Positions 12,267-21,254 of a DNA stretch of 64,000 bases are shown in pieces. Source of the stretch: Shinella zoogloeoides (lineage in GTDB: Bacteria; Pseudomonadota; Alphaproteobacteria; Rhizobiales; Rhizobiaceae); contig NZ_CP131131.1 in NCBI RefSeq assembly GCF_033705735.1, positions 1,178,001-1,242,000 of the forward strand, written 5' to 3'. The notes under the pieces were generated by a model. That model was not told the DNA's origin and did not search any database. It saw only the letters and a list, made by a program, of their open reading frames with translations. The position numbers and the translations under genes were made by a program. The first letter of the stretch is position 1. Every line of letters begins with the position of its first letter.

Positions 12267-12572
12267 TCACGCGGCCAGGAAGTCCGCCATCTCGACCTTG
12301 TAGAAGGTCTTCGTCCGCGGACCGGCCAGAATGGGGTCGATCCGGCGCACGCATTCCTGATAGTGCGGCGTCTTGCGATGCTCGTCGAGCGCTTCGGGCG
12401 ACCTGAACACCTCGTAGATGACGAAGCTGTGCTCGTCCTCGGGATTGCGCAGCACATCGAAGCGCAGGTTGCCCGGCTCAAGCCGCGTGCCCTCGTAATT
12501 GATGCGGAAGGCCTCCAGAAATTCATCGGCGTGGCCCGGTTTGACATTGATGCTGACCATCTGGATGAGCAT
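12267..12572 (-). CDS. lsrG: LsrG-like phospho-AI-2 isomerase (antibiotic-biosynthesis monooxygenase fold)
   Basis: 101-aa ferredoxin-like alpha/beta-barrel protein. In E. coli, LsrG converts phosphorylated DPD to 3-hydroxy-2,4-pentanedione-5-phosphate. The sequence shows the family pattern MVSINVKPGHADEFLEAFR, then NYEGTRLEPGNLRFDVLRN and FVIYEVFRSPEALDEHRKTPHY. A Shine-Dalgarno-like AAGGAT lies 8 bases before the start. It is 37 bases downstream of lsrK in the leftward lsrR-lsrK-lsrG operon, which is the main reason to choose LsrG over other short monooxygenase-fold proteins. It is cytoplasmic. Confidence 0.88.
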   Translation of the reverse strand: MLIQMVSINVKPGHADEFLEAFRINYEGTRLEPGNLRFDVLRNPEDEHSFVIYEVFRSPEALDEHRKTPHYQECVRRIDPILAGPRTKTFYKVEMADFLAA

Positions 12573-12609: not shown

Positions 12610-14172
12610 TCAAAGGCCCGGCGCTTTCCACATGGCCGTGGTGACGCCCTCGTCGACGAGCTGGCGTTGCAGCGCATAGGCCCGCGCCCAGCGTTCGCCG
12701 GCCTCGTCGTAGATGGCCTTGTGATCGAAATTCGGTTCAAAGCGCCTGTCCCAGCGCACCCAGCCCTCGGCCGCCTCGACGAAATCGCGGCGAAGGCCGA
12801 TGCCGATGGCGGCGGCGGCCGCGCAGCCAAGCGCCGTCGCCTCCTTGACGACGGGAGTGACGACCGGAAGGCCCGTCGCGTCAGACAGGATTTGGGACCA
12901 GTGGGCCGATTTCGAAGCGCCGGCAGCGAAGACGATCTTGTCCGGCGTCTTGCCGGAGAGCTTGAAGATGGCCGACAGGTTGCGGGCGGCGACGATGGCG
13001 GCGTTTTCCTGCAAGGCGCGGAAGATCGCGGCCTTGCCGGATTTTTCCGGGTCGATGGACAGGTTCAGCAGCGACGGGGCTGCGTGATACCAGTTGCCGT
13101 AATGCATGACGTCGGAGAAGACCGGGATGATGCCGTAGGCGCCGACGGGCACGCCCGCCGCCTTCTCCTCCAGCAGCCGGTAGGCATCGCCGCCCGGCCC
13201 GGCCGCGGCCACTTCCTCCGCGCCAAAACCATCGCGGAACCAGCGCATGACGATGCCGACGAAGAAGCTGATCGCCTCGGCCTGGTTGAGACCGGTCACG
13301 ACATGCGGGTTGATGCGCAGGTCCATCGACGGGTCGGAGACGGCGGGGCCGACATTGACTACCTGCTGCCAGAAGGTGCCGCCGAGCACCGCGCAGTCGC
13401 CCTCGTTGACGACGCCGATGGCCGCAGCCCCGCTCTGGCAATCGCCGCCGCCCATGACGACCGGCGTGCTGGCGGCAAGGCCGGTCTCGTCCGCCGCCTT
13501 TTCGGTGACGCGGCCGATGACGGTGCCCGGCTCGACGCTTTCGGGGAAGATGTCACCGCGCATGCCGGCCTTCGCCGTGGCCTCCGGCAACCAGTCGCGT
13601 TTCGTCAGGCTGTAGAGGCCGGTGGTGCCGGCATTGGAGGGATCGCTGGCGATGACGCCGGAAAGGCGCGCCAGAACCCAGTCGGAGAGCATGCTGATCC
13701 GGTCGATGCGGGCATAGACGTCCGGCAGGTTGCGCTTCAGCCAGAGAAGGCGCGGCAGGGCGCCGAGCGCGAAGGTCTGGCCGGTCTCGGCATAGAGGTC
13801 GCGTTCGAGGCCCGGAAAGTCGCGCTTCAGGTCACGCACTTCGCTGACGGCGCGGCTGTCGACATTGGCGCAGGCCCAGATCTCCCGCCCGCTGCGGTCA
13901 TAGGCGACGATGGCCTCGCGCATGCTGGTGGCGCTGACGGCGCGGATATCGGCGGCCGCGATGCCGGCCTCGGATATCGCCTGCCGGATGGCGCGCGAGA
14001 GCAGCGACCAGTTTCCCTCCACATCGAAATCCATGGAGCCGGGAAAGCGCGGATCGGCCTTGTGCCACCATTCGTGCTGGGCGCTGGCGATCTGGTTGCC
14101 GTTCTCGTCGAAGATGACGGCGCGGCCGCTGCCGGTGCCGGCGTCGACGGCCAGCAGGTATGAAGTCGTCAT
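12610..14172 (-). CDS. lsrK: Autoinducer-2 kinase LsrK
   Basis: FGGY-family kinase that phosphorylates imported AI-2 (DPD), trapping it in the cell and producing the inducer of LsrR. The 520-aa protein aligns along its length with E. coli LsrK from memory: LAVDAGTGSGRAVIFDENGNQIA at the N-terminus, SMREAIVAYD, IWACANVDSRA, SDPSNAGTTGLYSLT, LGGTFWQQVVN, NPHVVTGL, WYHAAPSLLNLSIDP and the C-terminal MWKAPGL. Family phosphate loops (DAGTGS, GAGASK) are intact. Only 4 bases separate it from lsrR upstream, and lsrG lies downstream. The assignment is stronger than a general sugar-kinase label. Confidence 0.95.
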   Translation of the reverse strand: MTTSYLLAVDAGTGSGRAVIFDENGNQIASAQHEWWHKADPRFPGSMDFDVEGNWSLLSRAIRQAISEAGIAAADIRAVSATSMREAIVAYDRSGREIWACANVDSRAVSEVRDLKRDFPGLERDLYAETGQTFALGALPRLLWLKRNLPDVYARIDRISMLSDWVLARLSGVIASDPSNAGTTGLYSLTKRDWLPEATAKAGMRGDIFPESVEPGTVIGRVTEKAADETGLAASTPVVMGGGDCQSGAAAIGVVNEGDCAVLGGTFWQQVVNVGPAVSDPSMDLRINPHVVTGLNQAEAISFFVGIVMRWFRDGFGAEEVAAAGPGGDAYRLLEEKAAGVPVGAYGIIPVFSDVMHYGNWYHAAPSLLNLSIDPEKSGKAAIFRALQENAAIVAARNLSAIFKLSGKTPDKIVFAAGASKSAHWSQILSDATGLPVVTPVVKEATALGCAAAAAIGIGLRRDFVEAAEGWVRWDRRFEPNFDHKAIYDEAGERWARAYALQRQLVDEGVTTAMWKAPGL

Positions 14173-14176
14173 GGGT

Positions 14177-15124
14177 TCAGTCCTTGATCTCGATGAGGCC
14201 GGCGGCCGTCGTCTCGTCGGTGATGAGGATGCCGACGAATTTTCCGCGCAGCGCCGCGTGGATGGCCCCGACCTTGTGAATGCCGCCCGCCGCCGCCACG
14301 ACCTTTTCGGCGCGCGACAGCGCCGCGAGCTTCACGCCGATCACCCGGTCGTGCAGCGGCAGGTCGAGCGGTTCGCCGCGCTCGTTGTAGAACTGGCAGA
14401 GGATATCGCCGACCGCACCCTTGCGGCGCAGCGGCTCCACCTCGTCGGGGCTGACATAGCCCGAACGCACGACGGTGGAGGCGGCGGAAAGCTCGCCGAT
14501 GCCGACGAGCTGGTAGGTGGCGTTGAGCGCCATGTCGAGGAGGTTGGCAACCGCCGGCTCCGAAGACAGGTTGCGCGCCACGTCGGGGTCGCGCACGACG
14601 AGGGGCGCGGGCACCAGATGCACGCCGCTGCCCCAATTGGCCGTGCGCATGCCGTCGACATAGGTGCCGACGCCGCCGGTGAGACTGACGAGGCCGATAT
14701 TGCGCTCATTGGCGAGATGGCCGAGCCGCTGGATGGTGTTGGATACGGTAGCGCCCCAGCCGACTGCCAGAAGGTCGTCCGTCTGCAAGCGCTGCATGAG
14801 GAACTGCGCGGCCGCCTGCCCCAGCCGGTCGCTCGGGTCCTGATCGGGAAGCTGCGGCACGACATAGGCCTCGAGCAGCCCGTAGCGCTCCTTGATCTGC
14901 CGCTCCAGCGCAAGGCAGCCCTGATAGCGCGAATTGATGCGCACCTGGATGATGCCCGAGCGGCGGCCGCTTTCGAGCAGGCGCGAGACCTTGATGCGCG
15001 ACATGTTGAGCTTTTCGCCGATCTCGTTCTGCGTCAGCCCGTCGTTGTAGTAGTACCAGGCGATACGGGTGAGAATCTCCTCGTCCGTATCGGCGTAGCT
15101 CCATTCCCCGTTGTCCGACGCCAT
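14177..15124 (-). CDS. lsrR: LsrR-type transcriptional repressor (SorC/DeoR family)
   Basis: 315-aa regulator with an N-terminal helix-turn-helix (ILTRIAWYYYNDGLTQNEIGEKLNMSRIKVSRLLE, about residues 15-50) and a large sugar-phosphate-binding domain (VGWGATVSNTIQRL, LTGGVGTYVDG, GDILCQFYNERGE). In enteric bacteria LsrR represses lsr genes until it binds phospho-AI-2. The start at 15124 is preceded by GAGGGAG; the longer open frame to 15316 would cross the promoter region. It is divergent from lsrA and first in the leftward operon with lsrK and lsrG. The two ends of the divergent region carry related 16-base motifs. Confidence 0.93.
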   Translation of the reverse strand: MASDNGEWSYADTDEEILTRIAWYYYNDGLTQNEIGEKLNMSRIKVSRLLESGRRSGIIQVRINSRYQGCLALERQIKERYGLLEAYVVPQLPDQDPSDRLGQAAAQFLMQRLQTDDLLAVGWGATVSNTIQRLGHLANERNIGLVSLTGGVGTYVDGMRTANWGSGVHLVPAPLVVRDPDVARNLSSEPAVANLLDMALNATYQLVGIGELSAASTVVRSGYVSPDEVEPLRRKGAVGDILCQFYNERGEPLDLPLHDRVIGVKLAALSRAEKVVAAAGGIHKVGAIHAALRGKFVGILITDETTAAGLIEIKD

Positions 15125-15364
15125 GCAAGCGGCTCCCTCGGTCGATTTCTGATCATTTGAATAACAAAAAAACTTTTGATACGTCAACGCATCCGCATGG
15201 CGAAAAATTCTTTGCGACCGCAATCCGTTGATTTTCGCGGATAAATCATATTTTGCAGCGCAATATTCCACTTTCTCGATGCCGACCGGCGCTTTGAGCA
15301 TATTGACGGCCACCAATCACTATGATCACATGATTGACATAGATTACATATGAACAGGTGCAGA
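15125..15364. promoter_or_regulatory. lsrR-lsrA divergent control region
   Basis: A 240-base A+T-rich region between the two divergent lsr operons. It holds two related motifs in the same orientation, TGATCATTTGAATAAC (15150-15165) near lsrR and TGATCACATGATTGAC (15323-15338) near lsrA, identical at 12 of 16 positions. Their placement at both transcript starts fits an LsrR operator pair. No -35/-10 pair is clear enough to call. Confidence 0.55.
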
Positions 15365-16867
15365 ATGACGGGTAGCCCGGCGACCGGGAGGGTCGCGACG
15401 CTGACGGACATCTGGAAGTCCTACGGTGCCGTTCCGGTGCTGAAGGGTGTCTCGCTCGCCTTGCAGACCGGGGAAGTGCACGCGCTTCTCGGCGGCAACG
15501 GCGCCGGCAAGTCGAGCCTCATGAAGATCATGTCGGGCGTCATCCCGGCCAACTCCGGCGCCATCGAGATCAACGGCCGGCCGCTTGCCCATGCTTCGCC
15601 GGCCCATGCGCAGGAGCTCGGCCTCTACCTGGTGCCGCAGGAAGCCCATATCCTGCCCAACCAGAGCGTCCTCGAAAACATCTGCCTCGGCCTTGCCGCC
15701 TCGCCCAAGGCGTTGCGCCCGCGCGTCGAACAGCTCGTCACCGAGCTCTCCGTCTCGCTCGACCTCGATGCCCAGGCCGCCGCCCTCGAAATCGCCGAGC
15801 GGCAGATCGTCGAGATCCTGCGCGGCCTCGTGCGCGATGCGCGCGTGCTGATCCTCGACGAGCCGACTTCCGCCCTCACCCCCTTCGAGACGAGCGCGCT
15901 CTTCCAGCGCGTGCGCAAATTGCAGGCGCAGGGCGTCGGCATCTTCTTCATCTCGCACAAGCTGCGCGAAATCCGCGAGATCTGCGGCACGATCAGCGTG
16001 CTGCGCGATGGCGTGATCGTGCTCTCCGGCCCGCTCGACGGCTACAGCGACGCCGAGATCATCGACGCGATGAGCCGCGTGCAGATCACGGAGACCTCCG
16101 GCAAGGATCGCACCGGCCGCAAGGTCTCGCAGATCGGCCAGCCGCGCCTCAGCGTGCGCGGCCTCAGCGGCGAGGGCTTCCGCAATATCAGCCTCGATGT
16201 GCGGGCCGGCGAAATCCTCGGCCTTGCCGGCGTCGTCGGCGCGGGGCGCACGGAATTCGCCGAGACGCTCTTCGGCCTGCGCCCCCAGACGGCGGGCAGC
16301 GTCATCTTCGACGGCGCGGAACTGAAGAAGCGCTCGCCGCGCCTCTGCATCGACCGCGGCCTCGTCTACCTGCCGGAAGACCGCCAGCAGCATGGCCTCT
16401 TCCTCGAAGCGCCGCTCTTCTGGAACGTCTCGTCCTATCTCGTGCATCGCCTTCCCTTCTTCCTCCGCCCCGGCGCGGAACGGAAGGCCTTCGACGAATT
16501 CCGCTCCAGCATGGGCATCAAGTGCACCGGTCCCGGCCAGGAGGCGCGCGGCCTTTCGGGCGGCAACCAGCAGAAGGTGTTGCTGGCGAAGTGCCTGTCC
16601 GCCCGACCGAAGGTGCTGATCCTCGACGAGCCGACGCGCGGCGTCGACGTCGCGGCGCGCAACGACATCTACGACCTCATCCGCAAGCTCGCCGCCGAGG
16701 GCGTCGCCATAGTCCTCATCTCCTCGGATTTCGACGAGATCGAACAGCTCGCCGACCGCGTCGAGGTCATGGCCTTCGGCCAGTCCGGCGGGGAACTGAC
16801 GGACGACATCTCGGTGGACGCCATCGCCCGCCTTGCCTTCGGCGCCTCGGAGGCCCGTCATGCTTGA
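15365..16867 (+). CDS. lsrA: AI-2 ABC transporter ATP-binding protein LsrA
   Basis: Sugar-type ABC ATPase with two nucleotide-binding domains, 500 aa, energising AI-2 import. The first domain has Walker A GGNGAGKS (43-50), Walker B LILDEPTSALT and an atypical signature LEIAERQIVEI. The second has the degenerate Walker A GVVGAGRTE usual for this family, the signature LSGGNQQKV and LILDEPTRGVDV. The odd first signature resembles that of enteric LsrA. ATG 15365 has AGGTG just upstream; another in-frame ATG is at 15350. The stop overlaps the lsrC start by 8 bases. Confidence 0.93.
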   Translation: MTGSPATGRVATLTDIWKSYGAVPVLKGVSLALQTGEVHALLGGNGAGKSSLMKIMSGVIPANSGAIEINGRPLAHASPAHAQELGLYLVPQEAHILPNQSVLENICLGLAASPKALRPRVEQLVTELSVSLDLDAQAAALEIAERQIVEILRGLVRDARVLILDEPTSALTPFETSALFQRVRKLQAQGVGIFFISHKLREIREICGTISVLRDGVIVLSGPLDGYSDAEIIDAMSRVQITETSGKDRTGRKVSQIGQPRLSVRGLSGEGFRNISLDVRAGEILGLAGVVGAGRTEFAETLFGLRPQTAGSVIFDGAELKKRSPRLCIDRGLVYLPEDRQQHGLFLEAPLFWNVSSYLVHRLPFFLRPGAERKAFDEFRSSMGIKCTGPGQEARGLSGGNQQKVLLAKCLSARPKVLILDEPTRGVDVAARNDIYDLIRKLAAEGVAIVLISSDFDEIEQLADRVEVMAFGQSGGELTDDISVDAIARLAFGASEARHA

Positions 16868-17891
16868 CCTCTTCGCGCGCAATCGCGTCGCAACGCTCAT
16901 CGCCGTTCTCGTCGTCGCCTATGCCGCAATCGGCGCGGCCGCGCCCGGCTATCTCTCCGGCGCCACGGCCTCGGTCGTCCTCTCCAACAGCCTCGTGCTG
17001 ATGCTGATCTCGCTCGGCACGATGATCGTCATCCTGACGCGCAACATCGACGTTTCCAGCGGCTCGGTGCTCGGCCTCAGCGCCGCCGTGCTCGGCCTCT
17101 CGCTCAACGCCGGCCTCGGCCTGCCGCTCGCCATCGCCTTCTGCCTCATGACGGGGGCCGCCGCCGGCGCCTTCAACGGGCTGATGGTCGCCTATCTCGG
17201 CATTCCCTCCATCGTCGCCACGCTCGGCACGCTCGGCCTCTATCGCGGCATCATGCTCGTTTTGACCGGCGGACGCTGGATCGAGGATCTGCCGCAGAAC
17301 CTCAAGGCACTGGCCGGCAATCTCGGCCCCGGCTTCTCTGCGCTCACCGTCGTCGTGCTCGTTCTCGTCGTGCTCGCATGGCTGGTGCTGCGCAAGACGC
17401 GCTTCGGCCGCTATTTCTACGCCGTCGGCGACAACCGCGCCGCCGCGCACCATCTCGGCGTACCGGTGAAGCGCGTACAGTTCACCGCCTTCGTCGCGAC
17501 CGGCATCTGCGCCGCGCTCGCCGGCCTCGTCTTCGCCGCGCAGATCGGCTTCATCCCCAACCAGGCCGGCAACGGCATCGAGCTGAAGGCCATCGCCGTC
17601 AACGTGCTCGGCGGGGTGAGCCTGCTCGGCGGCACCGGCTCGGTCGCGGGCGTCTTTTCCGCGGTCATCTTCATCACCTCCATCGACAGCGCACTCGTCT
17701 TCCTGAAAATCCCAGCCTACTGGAACGACTTCATCGCCGGCGCGATCCTGCTCTCGGTGCTGCTGCTCGACGGGCGCATCCGCCAGATCATCGACCGCCG
17801 CATCCGCGCCCGCCGCTATGCCGTGCACGAGCGCGGCCCCGCCCAATCCGCTGAAACGACAACGGCGCGCACCGTGGAGGCCGGCCGATGA
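16860..17891 (+). CDS. lsrC: AI-2 ABC transporter permease LsrC
   Basis: Inner-membrane permease of the ribose/AI-2 importer family, 343 aa (enteric LsrC is about 342). It has 8-10 hydrophobic segments and the family motif [19 protein letters not shown], corresponding to the conserved GGIDLSVGS region, plus [16 protein letters not shown] near the C-terminus. The start overlaps the end of lsrA by 8 bases, and its TGA overlaps the lsrD ATG (ATGA at 17888-17891), so the three genes are translationally coupled. Confidence 0.93.
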
Positions 17892-18901
17892 AGAAGCTCA
17901 TCTTCCGCTGGGAAACCGCGCTCCTTGCCATGCTCGTCGCCGAGCTTGCCATCTTCGGCATCGTCAATCCGCGCTTCCTCAATGTCGCGAACCTGATCTA
18001 CGGCACCTCGGACTTCGTGCAGATCGGCATCGTCGCGCTGCCGCTGACCCTCGTCATCATCGCCGGTGGCATCGACGTCTCCTTCGCCTCGGTGATCGGC
18101 CTTGCCGCCATCGTCTTCGGCGTCGCCACCTTCTACGGCGTGCCGCTGCCGCTATCGATCGCGCTGGCGCTCGTTTCCGGCGCGCTCTGCGGCCTTCTCA
18201 ACGCCGCCGTCATTCACCTGTCGAAGATCCAGCCGCTCGTCGTCACGCTCGGCAGCCTCTATCTCTTCCAGGGCACCGCAACCGTCGCCTCCGGTCTCGT
18301 CGGCGCGGGCGGCTACGAAGGCATCGGCAACTTCCCGGACGCCTTCAACGCCTTCGGCTATGCGGAAGTCCTCGGCCTGCCGGCTCCGCTCGCGCTGTTC
18401 CTCGCGCTCGCCCTCGTGCTCGTCGTGCTCCTGCACTTCACCCGCTTCGGCCGCGCCGTCTTCCTCTCCGGCCAGTCGGAAAGCGCGGCGCGCTTCGCCG
18501 GCATTCCGGTCGGCCGCGTGCAGACGATCACCTATGTCATCACGGGCGTTTCCGCCGCCATCGCCGGCCTCGTCATGTCGGCCTATTTCGGCTCGGCGCG
18601 CGTCGACCTCGGCTCGGCGACACTGCTGCCGGCCGTCACCGCGGCCGTGCTCGGCGGCGCCTCCATCTACGGCGGCCAGGGCTCCATCCTCGGCACCCTG
18701 ATCGCCACCTTCGTCATCGGCTACCTGCAGCAGGGCCTGCAGGCGGCCGGCGTCCCCAGCCAGATTTCCAGCGCACTTTCGGGAGGGTTGCTGGTTATCG
18801 CGGTCGCATTGCGCCACGGAAGCGCAATGCTGGCCGATTTCATCGCCGTCGCCCGGCAGAAAAGACAGAACCGGGCGGCAGTCACTTCAGGAGGAGAATG
18901 A
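17888..18901 (+). CDS. lsrD: AI-2 ABC transporter permease LsrD
   Basis: Second permease of the AI-2 importer, 337 aa, close to enteric LsrD length. The family motif appears as [20 protein letters not shown], with [13 protein letters not shown] and [17 protein letters not shown] further on. It probably pairs with LsrC in a heterodimeric channel. Its start overlaps the lsrC stop by 4 bases. It ends within the strong Shine-Dalgarno region (AGGAGG, 18889-18894) of lsrB. Confidence 0.92.
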
Positions 18902-18903
18902 GA

Positions 18904-19935
18904 ATGATCAAGAACATCATGAAATCCGGCGCCGTCGCCGCGGCGCTTCTCGCCGGCACCATGCTCGCCTCGGGCACGGCCCATGCCGAAAACCAGATCG
19001 CCTTCATCCCCAAGCTGGTGGGCGTCGGCTTCTTCACGTCCGGCGGCGCCGGCGCGACGAAGGCCGGCGAAGAGCTCGGTGCGAAGGTTACCTATGACGG
19101 CCCGACGGAACCCAGCGTCTCCGCCCAGGTGCAGTTCATCAACAACTTCGTCAACCAGGGCTACAACGCGCTCATCGTCTCCTCCGTCTCGCCGGACGGC
19201 CTGTGCCCGGCGCTCAAGCGCGCCATGGAGCGCGGCGTGCTCGTCATGACCTGGGACAGCGACGTCAACCCCGATTGCCGCAGCTACTACATCAACCAGG
19301 GCACGCCCGAGCAGCTCGGCGGCCTGCTGGTCGACATGGCCGCAGAAGGCGTGACGAAGGAAAAGGCCAAGGTCGCCTTCTTCTACTCCAGCCCGACCGT
19401 GACCGACCAGAACGCCTGGGCGGAAGCCGCCAAGGCGAAGATCGCCAAGGAGCATCCTGGCTGGGAGATCGTCACCACCCAGTACGGCTACAACGACGCG
19501 CAGAAGTCGTTGCAGACGGCTGAAAGCATCCTGCAGACCTACCCGGACCTCGATGCGATCATCGCGCCCGACGCCAACGCCCTGCCGGCCGCAGCACAGG
19601 CAGCGGAAAACCTGAAGCGCGCCGAAGGCGTCACCATCGTCGGCTTCTCCACGCCGAACGTCATGCGCCCCTATATCGAGCGCGGCACGATCCAGCGCTT
19701 CGGCCTGTGGGACGTCACGCAGCAGGGCAAGATCTCCGTCTATGTCGCCGATCACGTCCTGAAGAACGGCCCGATGAAGGTCGGCGACAAGCTGGAAATC
19801 CCCGGCGTCGGCACCGTCGAGGTCTCGGCCAACAAGGTACAGGGCTACGACTACGAAGCCGACGGCAACGGCATCATCCTGCTGCCGGAGCGCACCGTCT
19901 TCACCAAGGACAATATCGCCAACTTCGACTTCTGA
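18904..19935 (+). CDS. lsrB: Autoinducer-2 binding protein LsrB
   Basis: Periplasmic receptor for the R-THMF form of AI-2, 343 aa with a signal peptide ending at TAHA-EN. The six ligand-contacting residues described for Salmonella LsrB (K35, D116, D166, Q167, P220, A222) correspond here to K37, D118, D168, Q169, P222 and A224, every one shifted by exactly two. The supporting segments are [34 protein letters not shown] and [11 protein letters not shown] chose ATG 18904 because AGGAGG is 9 bases away; the ATG at 18898 is too close. The residue match separates it from ribose- and rhamnose-binding relatives. Confidence 0.95.
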
Positions 19936-19946
19936 TAACGCACGAA

Positions 19947-19981
19947 CGGCGGGCGGCTCCGGCTGCCCGCCGCTTTCATTT
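19947..19981 (+). terminator. Hairpin between lsrB and the class II aldolase gene
   Basis: A perfect 8-bp stem, CGGCGGGC (19947-19954) and GCCCGCCG (19965-19972), with a 10-base loop and the tail CTTTCATTT. It lies between two genes on the same strand, so it may be a partial terminator or protect the lsrB message, giving more binding protein than aldolase. Confidence 0.6.
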
Positions 19982-20000
19982 CAAGGACAGGACAATCCGC

Positions 20001-21254
20001 ATGAAAAGCCGCTGGAACGACGAGGATGCAGCCCGTTACGTGGAGGCCGCGCTGGAAGCCGGACAGAGCGAGGCCCTCGGCCTTCGCATCTACACCTCCC
20101 GCATCATCGGCGGTGATCCGGATCTCGTGCTGCACGGCGGCGGCAACACCTCCGTCAAGGTGACCTCGGCCGACGGCGAAGCGCTCATGCACATCAAGGG
20201 CAGCGGCTGGGATCTCGACACGATCGAGGCGCCGGGCCTGCCGGCCGTCCGTCTCGCCCCGCTGTTCGAAGCCCGCAACGGCCCGAAGCTCTCCGACCCA
20301 GACATGGTCGCCCTGCTGCGCGCCAGCCTCATCGAGGCGGACGCGCCGAACCCCTCCGTCGAGGCGCTGCTCCACGCCTTCCTGCCCTTCGCCTTCGTCG
20401 ACCATACGCATGCGACGGCGATCCTCGCCTTAGCCGACCAGCCCGACATGCGCGAGACGGTCAGCCGCGTCTATGGCGAGCGCCTCGCCTATGTGCCCTA
20501 TGTCATGCCCGGCTTCGACCTCTCCATCGTCGCCGACCGCATCTACCGCGACCATCCGGGCTGTGAAGGCCTCTGGCTGGAGAACCACGGCCTCTTCACC
20601 TTCGCCGACGATGCCCGCGCCTCCTACGAGCTGATGATCGAATTCGTCACCATGGCGGAAGAGGAGCTGGCGCGTAAGGGCATCACGCTTTCCGGCCCAC
20701 AGCCGAGCGACGGCGCAGAGGACACGGCGCTGACGGCGCGGCTTGAGGCCGCACTCACCCGCGACGGCTCGCCCTTCGCCAGGGGTGTCTTCCTCGACTA
20801 TCGCTCCACCGCCGCGATCCGCGAACATGCCGGAAAGGAAAACGTCGAGGCGATCGGCCTGCGCGGCACCGTCACGCCGGATCACGTCATCCGCATCAAG
20901 CCCTGGCCGATGGTCATCGAGGCCGGCGCGGACGAGGCCGCGATCGACGCGGCGCTTGCAGCCTATGCCGATCGCTACCGCGCCTATTTCACGCGCAACG
21001 CCACCCGCACCGACGAGCCGAAGCAGATGCTGGACGTCTATCCGCGCCTCGTTCTGGTCCGCGGCAAGGGCATCTACGCCCTCGGCGCCAGTGCGAAGGC
21101 AGCCGGGATCGGCGGCGACCTCTGCGAGCAGGCGACCCGCGCCATCAACGCCGCCGAAGCCTACGGCCGCTTCACGCCCATCGGCGAGGCGGACCTGTTC
21201 GACATGGAATACTGGTCACTGGAACAGGCAAAGCTGAAGGTCGCCGCTCAATAG
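20001..21254 (+). CDS. Class II aldolase/adducin family protein (RhaD-like aldolase domain)
   Basis: 417-aa protein matching the aldolase half of bifunctional rhamnulose-phosphate aldolase/dehydrogenases, without the dehydrogenase half. Visible features are LVLHGGGNTSVK (43-54), the HxH metal pair in FVDHTHATA (H135, H137), the later His in LENHGLF (H196), and a long C-terminal extension with DYRSTAAIREHAGKENVEAIG. Class II aldolases use a divalent metal to split sugar phosphates into dihydroxyacetone phosphate and an aldehyde. AGGACAGGAC precedes ATG 20001. The gene follows lsrB by 65 bases across a hairpin and no lsrF is present, so it may act on phospho-AI-2 products; that role is inference. 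Confidence 0.85.
   Translation: MKSRWNDEDAARYVEAALEAGQSEALGLRIYTSRIIGGDPDLVLHGGGNTSVKVTSADGEALMHIKGSGWDLDTIEAPGLPAVRLAPLFEARNGPKLSDPDMVALLRASLIEADAPNPSVEALLHAFLPFAFVDHTHATAILALADQPDMRETVSRVYGERLAYVPYVMPGFDLSIVADRIYRDHPGCEGLWLENHGLFTFADDARASYELMIEFVTMAEEELARKGITLSGPQPSDGAEDTALTARLEAALTRDGSPFARGVFLDYRSTAAIREHAGKENVEAIGLRGTVTPDHVIRIKPWPMVIEAGADEAAIDAALAAYADRYRAYFTRNATRTDEPKQMLDVYPRLVLVRGKGIYALGASAKAAGIGGDLCEQATRAINAAEAYGRFTPIGEADLFDMEYWSLEQAKLKVAAQ

Follow-up and report, generated by a model that had tools for sequence, protein, structure and literature searches.

A solo class II aldolase as the probable replacement of LsrF at alphaproteobacterial lsr loci, with relatives linked to LsrK in Campylobacterota

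In a 64,000-nucleotide stretch of DNA from Shinella zoogloeoides (contig NZ_CP131131.1, positions 1,178,001 to 1,242,000; the window hereafter), a cluster of lsr genes for the uptake and processing of autoinducer-2 (AI-2) contains no lsrF, and the gene following lsrB encodes a class II aldolase. To our knowledge, no terminal enzyme of AI-2 processing other than LsrF has been described; LsrF transfers an acetyl group to coenzyme A (CoA). Which enzyme, then, completes the breakdown of AI-2 from this cluster? We consider it probable, from gene context and sequence, that the aldolase provides a metal-dependent, CoA-independent last step which replaces LsrF and would cleave the LsrG product to dihydroxyacetone phosphate (DHAP) and, presumably, acetate.

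The original prediction placed a class II aldolase with intact metal residues 65 bases behind lsrB, and both statements hold. lsrB ends at 19935, the open reading frame (ORF) of the aldolase starts at 20001, and the sole Pfam domain of the 417-residue product is Aldolase_II (PF00596, residues 34-221), whose score of 76.7 bits against a gathering cut-off of 22.2 places it in the class II aldolase/adducin superfamily. H135, H137 and H196, which we take from FucA and RhaD to be the metal ligands, are invariant in an alignment of 27 sequences as well as in all 61 aldolases that we compared, and so are N49, S51, S68, G69, S119 and H125, with N49, S51 and S68 presumably binding phosphate. E121, which by the same assumption is of the catalytic type, is invariant among the 27; in the set of 61, it is replaced by D in one rhizobial fusion and G67 by A in one rhizobial fusion. 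The three metal histidines, the catalytic glutamate and the phosphate-binding N/S motifs of a class II aldolase are all found, and the predicted structure has the fold of this class, the structure comparison covering model residues 17-228.

The best NCBI models for this protein are those of bifunctional enzymes in which an aldolase is fused to a short-chain dehydrogenase/reductase (SDR), matched over the aldolase half only and below their cut-offs: NF006192, the best one, gives 475 bits over positions 1-429 of 685 (cut-off 639) and TIGR02632 gives 235 bits (cut-off 568). No SDR domain was detected in the 417 residues, which sets the protein outside the bifunctional rhamnulose-1-phosphate aldolase/SDR family proper (TIGR02632, PRK08324). 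Its alignment with that family spans the entire aldolase half and, read from these profiles, the protein is that half standing alone, in an AI-2 operon rather than a rhamnose operon. The LsrF model NF006081 is not among the 12 families that it matches at E 0.001, and it does not belong to the LsrF family. With FucA, RhaD, YgbL and the aldolase of the 5-deoxyribose pathway it shares about 15-21% identity over about 170-190 residues; it differs from them by an additional C-terminal region of about 190 residues and by its expected substrate. A weak epimerase match raised the idea that the C-terminal half holds a second, degenerate copy of the aldolase, an idea that we rejected as unsupported by profile comparison (probability 1.7%); the predicted model of that half alone was unusable (mean predicted local distance difference test score, pLDDT, 37.7).

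Is this arrangement conserved? We surveyed 199 genomes of the family to which the window belongs, with an lsrB threshold of E 1e-100. lsrB was found in 11 of them and an aldolase of at least 73% identity in seven, in all seven directly after lsrB. Behind lsrB, genome G175 keeps a remnant of the aldolase (residues 1-51, 84% identity, E 8e-23) and G075 two short pieces with weak matches (E 0.001 and 0.02). Since such pieces sit right behind lsrB in two rhizobial genomes (L031, 8629-8781; L030, 1494-1647, where the matches are weak), the gene order suggests that the aldolase step can be lost while lsrG stays. No aldolase was seen after lsrB in G151, nor in the 2.5 kb that remain of the contig in G081. 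Sixty other genomes of the family match the aldolase at E 1e-100, with identities of 44-54%, and in nearly all cases the matching frame has the size of a fusion (at least 684 residues).

A second survey was carried out on named genomes by scanning with an LsrK alignment and retaining the best 80 of 500 matches, a coverage that does not extend to lsr clusters distant from the query, for example in Firmicutes; four of its loci (L055, L056, L064, L076) correspond to genomes of the family survey (G094, G169, G175, G075). Under uniform rules, the 56 loci with lsrB divide into 27 with the aldolase only, 25 with lsrF only, none with both and four with neither, and lsrG is present in all 56. In 26 of the 27 loci, the distance from lsrB to the start of the aldolase is 63-106 bases; the exception is Devosia limi, where the aldolase lies between lsrR and lsrK. 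Three alphaproteobacterial loci (two of Cohaesibacter, one of an Ancalomicrobiaceae) carry lsrF without the aldolase, so that the two genes exclude each other also within the class. The arrangement beside lsrB is conserved, as the original prediction had required, and lsrF is missing from all of these loci that have the aldolase. The remaining 24 loci, without lsrB, come from Campylobacterota (16), Motiliproteus (one), Serratia (four) and alphaproteobacteria (L061, L069 and L088, on contigs that begin in or near lsrK or lsrR).

The nearest named relative among the matches listed is Shinella zoogloeoides PQ7 (LsrK 98%, aldolase 99% identical). The arrangement extends beyond rhizobia to Thalassospira, Paracoccus, Tritonibacter, Kaistia and Devosia. 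On plasmids, the aldolase was found in 124 records at E 1e-60, and the six that we examined (S. meliloti pSymB, Thalassospira, Paracoccus, Tritonibacter, Ensifer and Rhizobium) all have an lsr cluster with the aldolase after lsrB; on pSymB of S. meliloti 1021 the order is that of the window and the aldolase is 80.7% identical. A class-wide survey, with LsrK in one of 385 genomes at E 1e-130, was too sparse and was left unused.

Genome G139 bears on whether the aldolase belongs with the importer. In this genome (locus L036), lsrR, lsrK, lsrG and an aldolase of 54% identity lie within 10 kb, with lsrG and the aldolase only 19 bases apart, beside a ribose/xylose-like ATP-binding cassette (ABC) importer. 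Because the three lsr genes and the aldolase are kept together next to a different importer, this locus argues that the aldolase belongs with the lsr enzymes rather than with the importer.

A similar association was observed among the loci of Campylobacterota (16) and Motiliproteus (one), where we detected no match to LsrA, LsrB, LsrC or LsrD at E 1e-10 in the 3-21 kb of each locus, whole genomes not having been searched for the importer. luxS, the aldolase, an LsrG-like gene and lsrK are contiguous in L080, L082 and L121; an LsrG-like gene, metK, the aldolase and lsrK stand in a row in L083 (451-4747); and an SDR-fused aldolase precedes lsrK in L094, L109 and L086. No aldolase is seen within seven of the 17 loci. 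The corresponding genomes encode LuxS in 16 cases and an aldolase in 17; LsrF was found in none at E 1e-40. Three Campylobacterota LsrK proteins are 54-57% identical to those of the window and of E. coli, which are themselves 57% identical to each other. According to a gut-genome survey, Campylobacterota have AI-2 receptors other than LsrB (PMC12503165).

We then counted these genes in 199 genomes belonging to the same order as the Sulfurimonas genome G592 (LsrK at E 1e-110, aldolase at E 1e-45, LsrG-like protein at E 1e-12). LsrK and the aldolase are each present in 45 genomes, together in 41, each alone in four, and both are missing from 150 (Fisher p 3e-33 over the 199 genomes, uncorrected for descent); in 18 of the 41 the pair lies within 10 kb. 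The LsrG-like protein occurs in 39 genomes, 37 of which have the aldolase, 36 LsrK and 34 both, and in 22 of the 37 its gene is at most 200 bases from that of the aldolase. In Sulfurimonas-type contigs (L083, 451-4747; L103, 9729-12845), metK, the gene of S-adenosylmethionine synthesis, is found among or next to the genes for the LsrG-like protein, the aldolase and LsrK, which ties this set to methyl recycling.

From gene order, conservation, intact active-site residues, the predicted fold, the exclusion of LsrF and the co-occurrence with LsrK and LsrG-like genes, we infer a scheme for the substrate, its cleavage, the products, the metal and the control by LsrR. LsrACDB would import AI-2 (4,5-dihydroxy-2,3-pentanedione, DPD), LsrK would phosphorylate it and LsrG would isomerise it to 3-hydroxy-2,4-pentanedione 5-phosphate, a compound that already holds a DHAP half. 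The aldolase would bind this compound by its phosphate and through Zn2+ and cut the bond that joins the DHAP half to the acetyl half, so that DHAP and, by way of a hydrated carbonyl, acetate would be set free. Such a breakdown would lower phospho-AI-2, upon which LsrR would repress again. In Campylobacterota, the related aldolase would act behind LsrK on AI-2 made by the LuxS of the cell itself. According to PMC3386761, AI-2 as the only source of carbon does not support growth of S. meliloti, which fits signal removal better than feeding.

The whole cluster (Table 1) resembles the lsr operon of E. coli and Salmonella (lsrACDBFG, lsrRK) in its importer, kinase, isomerase, repressor and divergent layout, compared on the E. 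coli K-12 map, and also in having a gene for an aldolase-type enzyme next after lsrB. It differs in the nature of this enzyme: LsrF is a CoA-dependent thiolase with a class I aldolase fold, and the window has in its place a class II metal aldolase from a different fold family. The position of lsrG differs too, behind lsrK instead of behind lsrF. All seven Lsr proteins of the window match Lsr models best, and by the curated NCBI cut-offs LsrK, LsrA and LsrB lie above, LsrR, LsrC, LsrD and LsrG below. In the divergent region, TGATCANNTGA-type elements at 15150-15160 and 15323-15333 and a ACATATGAAC-type element at 15346-15355, shared by the window and its relatives, adjoin TTGACG boxes on either side; they are likely to be operators of alphaproteobacterial lsr clusters, to which LsrR would bind. 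The strong, GC-rich hairpin between lsrB and the aldolase keeps its position in all 24 loci folded (the window and 23 others), with a sequence that differs between lineages. A terminator scan flags it as terminator-like, one of six such sites where chance alone would give 3.8; the T tract behind it is weak in the window, and a T run is present in some relatives (L033, L054). It may cause partial termination, and it may set the ratio of LsrB to aldolase expression.

Table 1. Features of the lsr cluster and of the aldolase gene in the window
Feature	Coordinates	Strand	Evidence and remarks
lsrG, phospho-AI-2 isomerase	12267..12572	-	105.9 bits, cut-off 135
lsrK, AI-2 kinase	12610..14172	-	855.9 bits, cut-off 528
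lsrR, repressor	14177..15124	-	313 bits, cut-off 486; start inferred from the conserved part of a longer ORF
Divergent lsrR-lsrA control region	15125..15355	.	conserved operator-like elements
lsrA, ATPase	15350..16867	+	725.7 bits, cut-off 586; first possible start, the true one maybe further in
lsrC, permease	16833..17891	+	385.7 bits, cut-off 388
lsrD, permease	17888..18901	+	387 bits, cut-off 500
lsrB, AI-2 binding protein	18904..19935	+	NF011937, 636 bits, cut-off 384; start inferred
lsrB-aldolase intergenic gap	19936..20000	+	65 bases, GC-rich hairpin at 19947-19972
Solo class II aldolase, proposed LsrF replacement	20001..21254	+	417 residues; ORF, Pfam, alignment, structure comparison

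Some relatives of the cluster show peculiarities of their own. On pSymB of S. meliloti 1021, the lsrK frame (L040, 2575-4173) diverges from the LsrK of the window near residue 444, and this strain may make an altered AI-2 kinase, to judge from the frame; in S. meliloti 4H41 (L071), the match extends along the entire LsrK. The same pSymB locus has, about 9 kb downstream, a second short piece of the aldolase (L040, 20105-20329; 73 residues, 75% identity). In the four Serratia loci (L100, L106, L113, L126), lsrK and lsrG are divergent, and lsrB, LsrF and the aldolase were not found in the locus at the thresholds used.

Several observations weigh against the replacement of LsrF by the aldolase. 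The co-occurrence statistics are uncorrected for shared descent, the 56 loci are best LsrK matches and hence a non-random sample, and much of the exclusion between the aldolase and lsrF follows the split between alpha- and gammaproteobacteria. Of the four lsr loci with neither gene, L064 and L076 hold aldolase pieces and the contig of L074 ends about 0.8 kb past lsrB; L050 shows no remnant. The two Campylobacterota LsrG-like proteins that we tested are of the ABM family and match no NCBI LsrG model at E 1e-10, so that the isomerase role of such proteins is a tentative assignment, and five of the ten loci of this type with LsrK and the aldolase show no LsrG-like gene, two of the five being contigs of less than 6 kb. 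Relatives of 51-53% identity in L037 (4251-9187) and L038 (5142-10229) stand without LsrG, with a D-2-hydroxyacid dehydrogenase and an LsrK-like kinase just under the cut-off, a distant LsrR-like regulator being part of the same gene set. As these relatives have another kinase and a dehydrogenase as neighbours, the aldolase family serves more than one substrate, and gene context carries much of the argument. Finally, the Shinella genome has an LsrF-family gene elsewhere (contig C2:780107-780973, 479.8 bits for a cut-off of 297).

In the tree of 61 aldolases, which carries a long-branch warning, one group (96/98) holds 37 of the 39 aldolases of lsr clusters, and a second (96/94) 15 LsrK-linked aldolases, made of 12 of the 13 solo Campylobacterota proteins and three SDR fusions. 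The aldolases of G139 and Devosia fall outside the main lsr group, and they, together with L148, the L037/L038 type and the rhizobial fusions, sit on long branches without firm placement. The tree does not decide for or against a single LsrK-linked origin of the alphaproteobacterial and Campylobacterota aldolases; this and the outlying position of the G139 and Devosia proteins also count against the replacement.

Could the aldolase act on phospho-AI-2 by another route? It would then attack phospho-DPD directly, or a reductase would first make 5-deoxypentulose 1-phosphate, to be split to DHAP and acetaldehyde as by the aldolases of the 5-deoxyribose pathway. Such a route agrees with the SDR fused in the parent family and in the members beside LsrK in L094, L109 and L086, with the LsrG-like gene unseen in half of the ten loci with LsrK and aldolase mentioned above, which are without lsrB, with the SDR gene directly behind the aldolase, on the same strand, in Kaistia defluvii (L062), and with the structural neighbour 6btg/6btd, which we take, reaction included, to belong to the 5-deoxyribose pathway. 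However, lsrG is kept in every lsr locus with lsrB, an LsrG-like gene adjoins the aldolase gene in 22 genomes, and of 33 aldolase-bearing lsr loci (the 27 of the named survey, the window and five further ones) just three (L032, L033, L062) have an SDR gene at most 3 kb from the aldolase, L062 alone having it on the same strand. This scarcity favours, as far as neighbourhood can tell, a cleavage without reductase, and we hold the other route to be unlikely.

The aldolase might also serve an unrelated sugar that uses the same importer, its place in the operon being historical, as the original prediction had allowed. The relatives in L037 and L038, with their different kinase and dehydrogenase, and the naming of the family after rhamnose use would agree with this. 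The alternative is weakened by G139, where the aldolase stays with lsrK, lsrG and lsrR despite a different importer, by the relatives that go with LsrK where no importer gene turned up in the locus, and by the exclusion of lsrF, and we now find it quite improbable. The same gene contexts give good support to the aldolase as a substitute for LsrF in acting on phospho-AI-2.

The original prediction had further stated that no lsrF is found, which is correct for the cluster and wrong for the genome; a genome wholly without lsrF is ruled out by the 479.8-bit match. The LsrF-family gene lies 418 kb from the lsr cluster in another operon, with a DeoR-type regulator beside it and an aldolase/SDR fusion and a sugar ABC importer downstream, and its product is 68.5% identical to LsrF of E. 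coli K-12. A control genome labelled Escherichia coli fell below the LsrF cut-off, and LsrF of MG1655 served as yardstick instead. LsrF is above the cut-off in eight of the 199 family genomes, and only two of these (G000, G151) also have lsrB, the other six giving no lsrB match at E 1e-100; conversely, of the seven family genomes whose aldolase follows lsrB, six give no LsrF match at E 1e-90. The LsrF genes of L127, L128 and L133 have an SDR-like gene behind them and two ORFs ahead; in L128 (27-3188), these two ORFs encode Dak1 and Dak2 domain proteins. Within the 18-kb locus of the Shinella gene (L007), to which this search was confined, no copy of the conserved operator-like motif turned up. 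A co-regulated lsrF elsewhere, named in advance as fatal to the proposal, is thus matched by an existing gene but not by an operator or a consistent partnership with lsrB, and the objection is weakened, not closed. The SDR and Dak neighbours suggest that rhizobial LsrF-family proteins outside lsr clusters belong to another pathway, despite the AI-2 thiolase name of the NCBI model. The distant Shinella protein may act in trans, but that it performs the terminal step, with the aldolase as an accessory, seems very improbable: its score and identity, and an lsr cluster without aldolase in G151 with LsrF on another contig, are outweighed by the scarcity of genomes with both, by the SDR and Dak neighbours and by the missing operator-like site.

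We come back to the aldolase as the last enzyme of AI-2 breakdown. The lsr clusters of S. meliloti pSymB and R. sphaeroides were described as lsrBDCARKG in PMC2561040, and the S. meliloti 1021 cluster treated there is the same as that of the window and carries the aldolase; the word 'aldolase' is absent from the main text of that paper, its figures lying outside this check. Our literature search recognised no published link of a class II aldolase to lsr or of LsrK to Campylobacterota metabolism, the primary AI-2 papers, which may mention the gene, lying outside it.

The aldolase at the lsr loci of some soil and marine bacteria and its relatives in some environmental Campylobacterota point to a possible second route of AI-2 breakdown. 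We give about even chances to a broader proposal, that of a second, CoA-independent terminal AI-2 enzyme in two settings: alphaproteobacterial scavengers with the importer, and Campylobacterota with luxS and no lsr importer gene in the loci examined, which possibly phosphorylate, isomerise and split their own DPD by LuxS, LsrK, the LsrG-like protein and the aldolase. If true, the replacement of LsrF would explain how AI-2-eavesdropping rhizobia and marine alphaproteobacteria end the signal, and the aldolase would be a gene marker for AI-2 degraders missed by lsrF searches. The co-occurrence in Campylobacterota suggests that LsrK can be part of an internal pathway clearing LuxS-derived DPD; LsrK would then help to dispose of a reactive by-product of methyl recycling, or to recover its carbon, and would not serve signal uptake, which bears on the question whether the by-product of LuxS is a signal or a waste.
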